Shown: positions 29,204 through 32,567 of the stretch, piece by piece | Layout: the number at the start of each line of letters is the position of its first letter | How positions within the stretch are numbered: position 1 is the stretch's first letter | Origin: a bacterium | GTDB taxonomy: Bacteria > Bacillota > Clostridia > Lachnospirales > Lachnospiraceae | Assembly (NCBI GenBank): GCA_030535455.1 | Contig: JAUNJY010000044.1 | Span: forward strand, 1-34,204 | DNA: 34,204 nucleotides | Direction: 5' to 3' | The notes under the pieces: model-generated | Databases searched by the model: none | What the model was told of the DNA's origin: nothing | What the model saw: the letters and a program-made list of their open reading frames with translations, nothing else | Program-made: the position numbers and the translations under genes

Positions 29204-30820
29204 ATGATGGAGAGATATGTTGGAAAGTCTATTTTTAATGGGATCGCCATTGGCAAGTTATATTTTTATGCAAAAGAGGAACAGCAGGTAAGACGCAGTA
29301 AGACAAAGGATGTAAAGACAGAGTTAGAACGTTATGAGGCAGCGAAGCAGCAGGCAATCGCAGAATTGACAACCCTTTATGAAAAGGCAGTCAAAGAAGT
29401 AGGGGAAGTCAATGCAGAGATTTTTAATGTACACATTATGATGTTAGAAGATGACGATTACAATGACTCAATCCATAATATCATCGAGAAGCAGGAATTA
29501 AATGCAGAGTTTGCAGTGGCAACTACGGCAGACAACTTCTATGAGATGTTTTCCACCATGGAAGACGAATATTTTAAAGCAAGGGCATTTGATATCAAAG
29601 ATATCAGCGAGAGAGTAATCAAGATTTTGGGCGGAGCCAGTACGGGCAGTGATATTGGCTCAGACCCAGTCATAGTGGCTGCAACAGAACTTGCTCCAAG
29701 TGAAACCGTGCAAATGGATAAGGAGAAACTAATAGCATTTGTCACAGAAATTGGTTCTTCGAATTCTCATACGGCAATCTTGGCAAGAACCATGAATATA
29801 CCAGCATTGATCGGCATACAGGTTCAAGAATCCTGGAACGGAAAAATGGCAATCGTGGATGGAAATAATGGCGTGCTATATATTGAACCAGAAGAAGCGG
29901 TATTACAAGATTTCCAAAGGAAAAAGGAAGCCGAAGAGAAAAATAGAGAGTTACTGCTTCAGCTAAAGGGTAAGGAAAACGTAACATTAAGCGGGCAGAC
30001 AATTAAGCTGTATGCCAATATTGGAAATACTTCCGATTTGGCATCGGTAATGAAAAATGATGCGGGTGGCATTGGCTTATTACGTAGCGAGTTTCTTTAT
30101 TTGGAAACAGACCATCTGCCAACAGAAGAAGAGCAATTCCAGGTATATAAACAGGTTGCAGAGACCATGGCAGGAAAAAAGGTAATTATCAGAACCCTTG
30201 ATATTGGCGCAGATAAGCAGGTAGAGTACCTGAATCTTGGAAAAGAGGATAATCCTGCAATGGGCTATCGTGCAATCCGTATCTGTCTTACTCAGGTAGA
30301 TATTTTTAAGACCCAGTTAAAAGCAATTTTACGTGCCAGTGCATATGGAAACATTGCGATTATGTATCCAATGATCATTTCAGTTGAAGAGGTACATAAG
30401 ATTAAACGAATTGTAGAGGAAGTAAAAGCGGAACTATCAGAACTTGGGATTGCTTATGGCCAGGTAGAACAGGGAATTATGATTGAGACACCGGCAGCAG
30501 CAGTAATCAGCGATCTGTTAGCAAAGGAAGTGGATTTCTTTAGTATCGGTACTAATGACCTGACTCAGTACACCTTGGCAATTGACCGTCAAAACTCAAA
30601 GCTTGACTCTATCAATAATCCTCATCATGAAGCAGTATTACGTCTGATCGAGTTAGTAGTAAAGAATGCCCATAAGGAAGGTATCTGGGCAGGCATATGT
30701 GGAGAGCTTGGTGCAGACACTACATTGACGAAGAGGTTTTTAGAAATGGGAGTAGATGAACTATCCGTATCTCCATCTCGGATCTTACCGGTTAGAAAAG
30801 TAATTCGAGAAACGAAATAA
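29204..30820 (+). CDS. ptsI: PTS enzyme I (PEP-protein phosphotransferase)
   Basis: Uses PEP to phosphorylate HPr in the cytoplasm. 538 residues, a little short for the family (540-575). The active-site region reads GSSNSHTAILARTMNIPALIG, with the phospho-histidine after NS where most enzymes have TS. HPr-binding helices precede it; the PEP barrel has GIGLLRSEFLYL, RTLDIGADKQ, IMYPMIISVEEV, GIMIETPAAAV, SIGTNDLTQYTLAIDR and the C-terminal GICGELGAD with the conserved cysteine. ATG 29204 or 29207 after GTGAGG. Last gene of the PTS cassette; its terminator hairpin is duplicated on both sides of a family A element. Confidence 0.96.
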   Translation: MMERYVGKSIFNGIAIGKLYFYAKEEQQVRRSKTKDVKTELERYEAAKQQAIAELTTLYEKAVKEVGEVNAEIFNVHIMMLEDDDYNDSIHNIIEKQELNAEFAVATTADNFYEMFSTMEDEYFKARAFDIKDISERVIKILGGASTGSDIGSDPVIVAATELAPSETVQMDKEKLIAFVTEIGSSNSHTAILARTMNIPALIGIQVQESWNGKMAIVDGNNGVLYIEPEEAVLQDFQRKKEAEEKNRELLLQLKGKENVTLSGQTIKLYANIGNTSDLASVMKNDAGGIGLLRSEFLYLETDHLPTEEEQFQVYKQVAETMAGKKVIIRTLDIGADKQVEYLNLGKEDNPAMGYRAIRICLTQVDIFKTQLKAILRASAYGNIAIMYPMIISVEEVHKIKRIVEEVKAELSELGIAYGQVEQGIMIETPAAAVISDLLAKEVDFFSIGTNDLTQYTLAIDRQNSKLDSINNPHHEAVLRLIELVVKNAHKEGIWAGICGELGADTTLTKRFLEMGVDELSVSPSRILPVRKVIRETK

Positions 30821-30836: not shown

Positions 30837-30861
30837 AGAGAAGATTATAAAGTCTTCTCTT
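30837..30861 (+). terminator. Left copy of the ptsI terminator hairpin (no T-run)
   Basis: AGAGAAGA...TCTTCTCT stem, 25 bases, identical to 31095-31119. It is followed at once by the family A left end and not by T residues. Together the two copies look like a target duplication of a palindromic site. Confidence 0.75.
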
Positions 30862-31094
30862 AGCTTGTCAACAAAGTCGCCAAGCTTTGGATGAAATCGG
30901 GCTTTCATCCAGTGCCGGAGGAAATGATTAGTGCTCATTCGCGCAAGTCCTTATAAAGCAGGACCTATTCGCACTAAATCGATATCCGAAAAGCGTGGTT
31001 TCCGGATATCGATTTCAATGAAAACCCAGGTTTTCAAACTTTCCTCTAAGCAGTGCGTTGGAGTGAATATAAGATTTCATTTGTCTACAGTCTG
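30862..31094 (+). repeat. Structured repeat family A, full copy 1 (233 bp)
   Basis: Bounded exactly by 25-bp direct repeats. Hairpins in order: CTTGTCAAC/GTCGCCAAG (loop AAA), GGATGAAA/TTTCATCC, AGTCCT/AGGAC inside TTAGTGC/GCACTAA, a 13-bp stem (30976-30988 with 31003-31015) with loop AAAAGCGTGGTTTC, GAAAACC/GGTTTTC, then a tail ending GTCTACAGTCTG. No ORF. The ends (CTTGTCAACA and TGTCTACAG) can themselves pair imperfectly. It would be transcribed in the ptsI 3' UTR. I cannot match it to a named RNA or mobile element family. Confidence 0.8.
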
Positions 31095-31125
31095 AGAGAA
31101 GATTATAAAGTCTTCTCTTTTTTTT
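31095..31125 (+). terminator. Right copy of the ptsI terminator, with T-run
   Basis: Same 25 bases as 30837-30861, here followed by T residues to 31125, so transcription from ptsI probably ends here after passing the element. Confidence 0.85.
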
Positions 31126-31231: not shown

Positions 31232-32245
31232 GTGAAAGAGGATTTTATTGAGGAAAATGATTTGCGTATGAGTAAGGATAGAACCATTTTATATGGTTAT
31301 AGCGGTGAGGGGGGAACAAGGCTTGATGTGCCGGCTAGCATCGTAGAGATTGCCCCACGGGCATTTGAGGGAATTAGCTCTCTGCAAGAGGTAAGTCTTA
31401 ACGAAGGGCTGCAATGCATAGGAGACTACGCATTTGCCTGCACCTCCATTGCAAAAGTAAGGCTTCCAAGTACAGTGAAGGAATTAGGGGTTTGTTGTTT
31501 TACAGTTGATGATCTCTTTATTGATTATTTTGAACCTTGCCATTATGCTAAGATGGAAGTAGACAAAGACAGTAATCATCTTCGATCTGATGGCCAGTGC
31601 ATCTACAAAAGAAGGGAAGATAATACAGAGGAGCTGTTATTATGCTACAATTCTCAAATTGCAACTTATGAGGTTTCAGACAATACAGTTTGTATTCGTA
31701 AATATGCATTTTTAGGCTGTTCCAAATTAAAGGACATAAAGCTTGGGACAGGGGTGAAATGGATAGAAGAGAATGTATTTCGGGATTGCGGTTTAGAACG
31801 CCTTTATATCCCAGCAAATGTTCAAGAACTTTCCAATGTACCATTCCTGACATACTGGACAAAGAGTGGTGAACGTTATCGCATTTCGCTTCATATTGAT
31901 CCGGAAAATCCCTATTATTTTAATGTGGGCTGGGTAATTTACAAAAGAGAAAACGATGGTGATACTTTGCTTTCTTGCAGCTCCAATGAAACAATCATTA
32001 CAGTACAGGATGGAACGACGACCATAGGAGAACAGGCTTTTGCTGAATGCAGCGAACTGGAAAAAGTACTATTGCCAAATACAGTTAAGACCATAAAAAG
32101 AGGTGCATTTCGATTATGTGAATCGTTAAATACCATTATAGCTTTGGATGACCCACGTAGTGATTGGCAAGGTCTTGCTTTGCCGTCCTCTATTGAAACA
32201 GTCGAGGAATATGCGTTTAGCGGATGCAATATGAAAGATGTGTAG
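31232..32245 (+). CDS. BspA-type leucine-rich repeat protein without signal peptide
   Basis: A 337-residue protein of LRR_5 (BspA/TpLRR) repeats: VEIAPRAFEGISSLQEVSL, IGDYAFACTSIAKVRLP, VCIRKYAFLGCSKLKDIKL, IGEQAFAECSELEKVLLP, IKRGAFRLCESLNTII. Each repeat carries the AF-GC/S-L pattern. Most relatives are surface proteins, but no signal peptide or anchor is present here, so it may be intracellular. GTG 31232 follows GGGGGAG (spacing about 8). The sequence ends in an incomplete repeat (YAFSGCNMKDV), which suggests a truncated repeat array. A family A element lies in its 3' region. Confidence 0.85.
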   Translation: MKEDFIEENDLRMSKDRTILYGYSGEGGTRLDVPASIVEIAPRAFEGISSLQEVSLNEGLQCIGDYAFACTSIAKVRLPSTVKELGVCCFTVDDLFIDYFEPCHYAKMEVDKDSNHLRSDGQCIYKRREDNTEELLLCYNSQIATYEVSDNTVCIRKYAFLGCSKLKDIKLGTGVKWIEENVFRDCGLERLYIPANVQELSNVPFLTYWTKSGERYRISLHIDPENPYYFNVGWVIYKRENDGDTLLSCSSNETIITVQDGTTTIGEQAFAECSELEKVLLPNTVKTIKRGAFRLCESLNTIIALDDPRSDWQGLALPSSIETVEEYAFSGCNMKDV

Positions 32246-32381: not shown

Positions 32382-32567
32382 AGCTTGTCGACAAAGTCGA
32401 CAAGCTTTGGATGAAATCAGGATTTCATCCAGTGTCGAGTGAGCACTAATCCGAGATTCGAAAAGCGCGGTTTCCGGATCTCGCTTCCAATGAAAACCTA
32501 CAGTTTTCGAACTTTACGCTATGCAGTGCGCAGGAGTGAATGTAAGATTTTATTTGTCTACAGTCTG
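32382..32567 (+). repeat. Structured repeat family A, full copy 2 (186 bp)
   Basis: Same ends and hairpin order as 30862-31094, lacking about 47 bases near the AGTCCT hairpin. AGCTTGTCGAC-AAA-GTCGACAAGCT is here a perfect 11-bp stem; GGATGAAATC/GATTTCATCC is perfect too. The main stem is CGAGATTCG/CGGATCTCG (32452-32460 with 32475-32483) around loop AAAAGCGCGGTTTC. Flanks are AAATTTTC on the left and AAAATTTT on the right, a short palindromic duplication that also lengthens the outer stem. Confidence 0.8.

Follow-up and report, generated by a model that had tools for sequence, protein, structure and literature searches.

A mobile element inserted at terminator hairpins, its conserved interior fold and its probable IS1182-family partner in the order Lachnospirales

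The ptsI locus and the element it carries

The window, by which we mean the whole stretch of 34,204 nucleotides that was analysed, contains behind ptsI two copies of a terminator hairpin that enclose a non-coding element, and a second, shortened copy of this element further downstream. The features of the locus and the parts of the element are:

29204-30820, ptsI, so named in an earlier sequence-only reading
30837..30861, + strand, left terminator hairpin copy AGAGAAGATTATAAAGTCTTCTCTT, U-tract lost, 25 of 25 bases equal to the right copy
30862..31094, + strand, mobile non-coding element of 233 bp, or of 234 bp with the preceding T/C counted in
30862..30887, + strand, left end and hairpin H1 (AGCTTGTC..GTCGCCAAGCT), which holds one arm of the short terminal inverted repeat CAGcttGTcGACAAA
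30888..30911, + strand, hairpin H2 of the conserved fold
30926..30979, + strand, irregular hairpin H3-H5 with internal loops
30980..31011, + strand, hairpin H6 (CGATATCCGAAAAGCGTGGTTTCCGGATATCG), an inverted repeat with double changes in 4 pairs
31019..31036, + strand, hairpin H7 (TGAAAACC..GGTTTTCA), with double changes in 3 pairs
31080..31094, + strand, right end TTTGTCTACAGTCTG, inverted partner of the left end
31095..31125, + strand, right terminator hairpin copy and T-run, the presumed working terminator
32382..32567, + strand, second copy, internally deleted, 186 bp, without a convincing hairpin duplication

The hairpins at 30837-30861 and 31095-31119 are equal at all 25 bases and lie 258 bases apart from start to start, as the first-pass annotation had it when it described an identical 25-bp pair enclosing a segment of 233 bp; its coordinates hold. 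It had also placed the T-run on the right copy only, and indeed the left copy ends in TT and passes directly into the element while the right copy continues as a run of eight T (31118-31125). The element probably starts one base earlier, at 30861 (here T), because 28 of the 65 left-end matches in its own genome are exactly CAGCTTGTCGACAAA; the boundary is ambiguous by this one base. In the consensus of the copies the ends CAG-CTTGTCGACAAA and TTTGTCTACAGTCTG form a short inverted repeat, with 12 of 15 positions matching between CAGCTTGTCGACAAA and TTTGTCTACAGTCTG (counted by hand). With its length below about 500 bp, no transposase gene, shared inverted ends, a target duplication and many dispersed copies, the element has characters typical of MITEs.

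The segment had been described as having no ORF. Six reading frames of at least 20 aa overlap 30862-31094, and the longest frame inside (54 aa, 30931-31095, + strand, reaching to the last element base) is open for at least 50 codons in just 5 of 59 aligned copies and is therefore not conserved. A comparison of ptsI 3' regions was partly informative. Five ptsI homologues without the element (60-68% protein identity, from three genus genomes; three weaker matches were left out) each have one hairpin in the 330 bases 3' of the gene, read by eye, but these genomes have diverged too far for a site to match letter for letter, and no exact empty site was seen in the ptsI 3' regions of the three. Some 1.3 kb further downstream follows the 186-bp copy, in the same orientation as the first, and between the two is a gene (31232-32245) whose product we take to resemble a leucine-rich-repeat surface protein.

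Copies in the genus and their target

The own genome (G000; 4.35 Mb in 126 contigs) holds at least 40 copies including that of the window, the others being 81-96% identical to it (40 copies among 40 scored of 117 candidates), far more than chance would produce, and the left-end pattern occurs there at 65 places against 7 for a control pattern. A sequence search of 61 genomes including the own, with 13 candidates scored per genome, found the element in three, G000, G001 and G003, all of one genus; it was not found by sequence in G002, the fourth member of the genus, nor in the other 57. Further copies, which the first-pass annotation had proposed to look for, are thus present both in the host and in two relatives. 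Identity is 85-97% in G000 and G001 (short self-complementary matches aside) and mostly 68-72% in G003, about 68% over the full length. Records of the MAG S3R_St_47 appear to represent G001, since loci L083 and L059 are the same copy with the same flank.

From 97 sources (the window, 59 from G000, 7 from G001, 24 from G003 and 6 from the MAG), a script retained 60 copies with both ends recognised (31, 6 and 20 from the three genomes and 3 from the MAG). A direct duplication of 17-39 bp with a score of at least 10 flanks 52 of these 60 copies (51 score at least 15, and 31 are free of mismatches); no clear duplication was found in the other 8. The duplicated sequence is a stem-loop, usually preceded by A and followed by T, and in 47 of the 52 cases it is more palindromic than all of 50 shuffles. 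Its length correlates with the span of the hairpin (r 0.78, n=47; five of the 52 were unmeasurable by the script) and thus follows the hairpin structure rather than a fixed stagger. That many copies sit at many terminators, mostly with their own local hairpin duplicated, agrees with the earlier proposal that the element inserted at a terminator palindrome and duplicated its target, and the sequences compared make both the mobility of the element and its preference for terminators well supported.

Orientation is biased. Among the 60 copies, those between tandem genes lie in sense in 21 cases and in antisense in 7 (p 0.0125, simple ORF calls), while 13 sites are between convergent genes and 19 are unclear; over 87 duplications, the T-run on the right of the element exceeds the A-run on the left in 41, the reverse is seen in 19 and 27 are ties (p 0.006). 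We therefore rejected a strict direction relative to genes and retain a bias only.

Several G000 copies are internally deleted with the ends kept, leaving 97, 62, 45 and 18 bp between the ends (L067, L071, L063 and L075). In L075 (about 3072-3089 of contig C73) the two ends are fused into the 18 bp CAGCTTGTCGACAGTCTG at a terminator, and L074 (contig C122) is a one-base variant of this derivative, also at a terminator; both probably arose as deletions across the inverted ends. The hairpins at another G000 locus, L023 (about 1470-1770 of contig C84), are inverted relative to each other: over 29 bp, loop included, the left one is exactly the reverse complement of the right one, which looks like the flipping of one hairpin once the element had inserted. 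An inverted duplication scores better than a direct one (score at least 14) in 3 of 111 places and convincingly in L023 only.

The interior fold

The interior was analysed in an alignment (A1) of 59 copies, from which the 186-bp copy was left out. RNAalifold predicts 48 pairs, 17 of them with compensatory changes. When seven helices with 52 pairs in all are taken as the structure, 99.1% of the 3067 cells are paired, and double changes occur in 18 of the 52 pairs. Shuffles give 81 double-changed cells and sliding of the partner gives no more than 41, where the alignment has 262; the covariation score of 0.248 compares with 0.099 in shuffles and with 0.063 or less after sliding. Further pair types, at 38, do not exceed the 39.4 of shuffles (464 of 500 shuffles reach 38). 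The double changes within the genus mostly reflect one old split, of G003 from the rest; inside G003, some subfamilies also differ by paired changes. H2 is paired in 99.8% of its cells in the genus and has no double change there. By a FastTree parsimony count, paired columns change 0.88 times and unpaired columns 3.27 times on average, with two conserved internal loops standing out among the latter (1.0 change per column in columns 87-89, 0.6 in columns 108-112).

With a covariance model of the element (R1), it was found in 3 of 397 genomes of its own family and in 50 of 392 genomes of the order including its own, distributed over 18 of 174 genera, 48 of the genomes belonging to two other families and one to a third. 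At most 5 candidates were scored per genome in the order-wide search, and copy numbers from it are lower bounds. Among the matches listed, 39 of the 50 genomes reach at least 40 bits, a level above the 33 bits that the reverse strand of a true copy attains at best; the 11 genomes whose best score lies below 40 bits carry the same caveat as G171, that the model may see shape and not homology. G171 scores 38.2 and 45.8 bits with R1, where reverse strands of true copies reach up to 33, and 28.4 and 17.1 bits with the interior-only model R2, where the reverse complement of a true copy reaches 25.9; nhmmer found nothing significant in its interior. G171 was rejected as proof of an old interior, and because it shows shape alone, the claim of order-wide homology rests on stronger loci such as those of G580 (77.9-83.7 bits).

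We read 56 order-wide loci, two of which are one place. In 51 rows (50 distinct places) the left end has the hairpin AGNNTGTCGACAAAGTCGACANNCT with no more than four changes, and 35 of these have a duplication scoring at least 10, 29 of them at least 15, and 16 have none that is clear. Since the script's choice of the right end partly favoured the largest duplication, scores close to 10 carry little weight, and 6 of the 35 lie below 15. More palindromic than all of 50 shuffles are 24 of the 35. In an alignment fitted to R1, comprising 52 of the 56 loci (L145, L149, L155 and L197 were left out, the last two being the same place), 93.4% of cells are paired and 50 of 52 pairs show double changes, including all 9 pairs of H2; the double-changed cells number 498, against 135 in shuffles and at most 113 when slid. 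This count leans towards R1, to which the alignment was fitted and by which its rows were chosen, and we argue that the pairing is real because of the slid and shuffled controls together with the G580 scores. A MAFFT alignment made from sequence only, with 39 copies (29 order-wide and 10 from the genus), yields a consensus fold in H1 and H2 only, with 15 pairs, 92.7% paired against 73.8% in shuffles. From the covariation we infer that the interior fold has been under long-lasting selection for base pairing.

Two other readings concern the stems and the origin of the interior. The first holds that they are kept without function by copying errors such as template switching or quasi-palindrome correction. 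Hairpin-rich sequence favours such errors, and the inverted hairpin of L023 shows that arm-to-arm copying or flipping occurs; but with inversion convincing at that single locus out of 111 places, and with errors of this kind expected to perfect stems and erase loops where some loops here change least of all, we regard it as improbable. The second holds that the interior is a host regulatory RNA captured between IS1182 ends, which spread by regulating the genes upstream of its landing sites. The conservation of the fold over many lineages and the sense bias behind genes would suit a captured RNA, which the internally deleted copies, down to 18 bp, do not, and we judge it about as unlikely as the first.

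IS1182-family elements, a proposed mode of movement and the place of the fold

An element with the same ends and a transposase exists. A scan of viral contigs for the left end found a single place, L086, which is a complete element of 1506 bp with the same two ends, lying between two copies of AAGCATCCCGAAGGATGCTT, a 20-bp terminator duplication. It encodes an IS1182 transposase of 456 aa (NF033551, 485.6 bits at a cut-off of 270) with the Pfam DDE domains PF13751, PF05598 and PF01609. The right end is identical in the element and in the IS1182-family loci L086 and L134, and the left end is common to the element and L086. In G002, the member of the genus in which the element was not found, a contig starts inside the 3' part of an IS1182-type transposase gene, followed by TTTTGTCTACAGTCTG, the right end of the element, and then directly by a terminator hairpin.

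The habit recurs in several other IS1182 elements. Of five read on plasmids, taken from the 25 listed of 2110 records and among the closest to L086, two have hairpin duplications (30 and 24 bp), two are flanked by hairpins that differ from each other, and in the fifth no left end was recognised. The two with unlike hairpins, L109 and L111, are on Peribacillus plasmids, and their flanks suggest recombination between copies. Order-wide, 16 of 30 IS1182 loci were read, and the script gave duplications of 23-31 bp in L198, L199, L209, L213 and L221, of which L209 and L213 have identical flanks. The single-contig genome G675 has 11 IS1182 over the NF033551 cut-off. Four with a right end paired by the script have hairpin duplications of 31, 23, 23 and 23 bp, six further ones have by eye a hairpin right at the IS end in the upstream flank, and L224 gave no clear result; their right end, TTTGACAGTCTG, matches the right end of the element in G675. 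The eleven (L199-L225, contig C1) have nearly equal scores and are probably a recent burst at terminators. In G046 (L198, contig C1) one terminator has received both the element and an IS1182: of three copies of the hairpin ACCGCCGCATTTATAATGCGGCGGT, the first and second enclose the element and the second and third the IS1182; the element there scores 47.1 bits with R1 and is 84% identical over 210 bases to L157 of the same genome. Such side-by-side insertion is consistent with mobilisation of the element in trans.

Partners are not found in every host. In 15 order-wide genomes with the element, NF033551 has matches in 6, over the cut-off in 2, and none in the other 9; in the own genome, a draft of 126 contigs, PF13751, PF05598 and NF033551 all have no match. 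Twenty further G000 stretches, searched by script for an autonomous partner (two also by reading frame), contained deleted or partial copies and solo ends, and no IS was seen in them. The IS1182-like genes of G003 (L133, with one stop) and G171 (L132) were dropped as partners for their different ends, and a solo right end in G003 (L092) was discarded as a partner trace, following an unrelated gene.

Published work touches on the target choice of IS1182. Target duplications of the family in ISfinder are 2 to 60 bp (PMC7335449), which fits a duplication measured by the hairpin; related transposases may recognise a target sequence or the structure of the target DNA (PMC12056078); and IS1182 is one of ten families over-represented between convergent genes (PMC9208149), which fits terminator targets. 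The literature searched, partly in excerpts, yielded no description of terminator-hairpin duplication by IS1182, nor of the fold of the element. IS1182 is also reportedly listed in ISfinder and TnPedia with palindromic targets.

Very probably, then, the element is a MITE moved in trans by an IS1182-family DDE transposase. The enzyme would recognise the short inverted ends, as their sharing and the common habit suggest, and would pick the hairpin of an intrinsic terminator as its target, so that joining copies the whole hairpin on both sides; because the duplication follows the hairpin and not a fixed length, each strand may be cut just 3' of the hairpin. The right hairpin, keeping its T-run, should still stop transcription, and the left, having lost it, should not; transcripts of the upstream gene would accordingly run through the element and end at the right copy, and the folded RNA would join their 3' end. 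The first-pass annotation had left mobility to come from outside. This is now likely, there being members of the IS1182 family whose ends match those of the element and which have the same target preference. Its statement that an IS does not fit is right in that the element is itself no IS, and falls short in that it resembles the short non-autonomous companion of one. With IS1182 members the element shares the same or similar ends, the terminator-hairpin target and, in several members read, the hairpin duplication; it differs from them in having no transposase and a multi-helix interior. Of 19 IS1182 loci searched with the fold model, just two match strongly, L133 and L198, and both have the element next to the IS; L086 and L211 match weakly, at 17.8-27.6 bits.

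Group IIC introns insert beside terminator hairpins, and a group II intron-like or reverse-transcribed element aimed at terminators would share this target and a multi-helix interior. The Rfam intron models have no match at the gathering score, nor a plausible one up to E 5; more widely, no Rfam family exceeds its gathering score in the window, and in 14 loci Rfam reports three tRNAs only, outside the element. The inverted ends, the long target duplication and the existence of elements that share these ends and this habit and encode a DDE transposase also speak against an intron, making this reading extremely improbable. REP and BIME sequences are short palindromes of 20-40 bp with a RAYT partner, against which the size and long duplication of the element argue.

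Whether the fold matters as RNA or as DNA is a finer matter. Its hairpins might extrude as DNA and help the transposase to find or pair the ends, the RNA being a by-product. In favour of this, both the left end of the element and its target are hairpins, the direction bias is not strict (21 against 7, and 41 against 19), and a similar caution about DNA is printed for the mobile structured motif MRSC-65-2 in the part of PMC11109978 consulted. But the conserved unpaired loops (columns 87-89 and 108-112) exceed what a simple cruciform needs, and the IS1182 elements L199, L107 and L108, of the same habit, have no fold-model match at E 0.01, so that the IS1182 transposase needs no fold in general. 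Recent single changes give 15 G-U against 10 A-C (p 0.42), which does not separate the two roles. We consider a DNA role possible but on the unlikely side and lean, with some reserve, towards the fold acting as RNA in the 3' UTR. More tentatively, the interior may be an active, long-conserved mobile RNA module that serves the element, by binding the transposase or guiding it to terminators, or that protects or regulates host transcripts; each insertion would then turn a terminator into a hairpin, a folded RNA and a terminator.

Comparable elements have been described. The bacterial MITEs with stable transcripts covered in the review PMC10969869 (QMITE2, Chunjie, BOX, RUP and SPRITE) are, by its descriptions, like the element in their length below 500 bp, inverted ends, target duplications, intergenic position, many copies and predicted stable fold; unlike them, the element duplicates a whole terminator hairpin of variable length and has a fold backed by compensatory changes, beyond prediction. 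The string IS1182 is absent from the main text of that review. MRSC motifs, such as MRSC-65-2, have in common with the element a covarying fold, dozens of copies per genome and a link to a transposase. As described in PMC11109978, MRSC-65-2, the one motif compared, is a single long stem with UYCCGG repeats, whereas the element folds into several helices, bears IS1182 ends and has a defined target. In the literature searched, seen in part, we found no joint description of a terminator target rule and a conserved fold in the MITE of an IS.

The interiors of MITEs are usually thought to decay freely, and here the fold of a non-coding mobile element is kept by compensatory changes across families of one order. 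An element linked to a DDE transposase, with a duplication that is a whole structure of variable length, raises the question of how the enzyme measures its cut by the hairpin and not by distance. Because a working terminator should remain after insertion, terminators would be a nearly harmless niche, and dozens of copies could be explained in this way. Were the fold to act as RNA, the element would be a mobile 3' UTR module; and if the tentative reading of its interior as an active RNA module is true, such a module has been installed 3' on many unrelated mRNAs across the order, which would explain why the fold has outlived the sequence.
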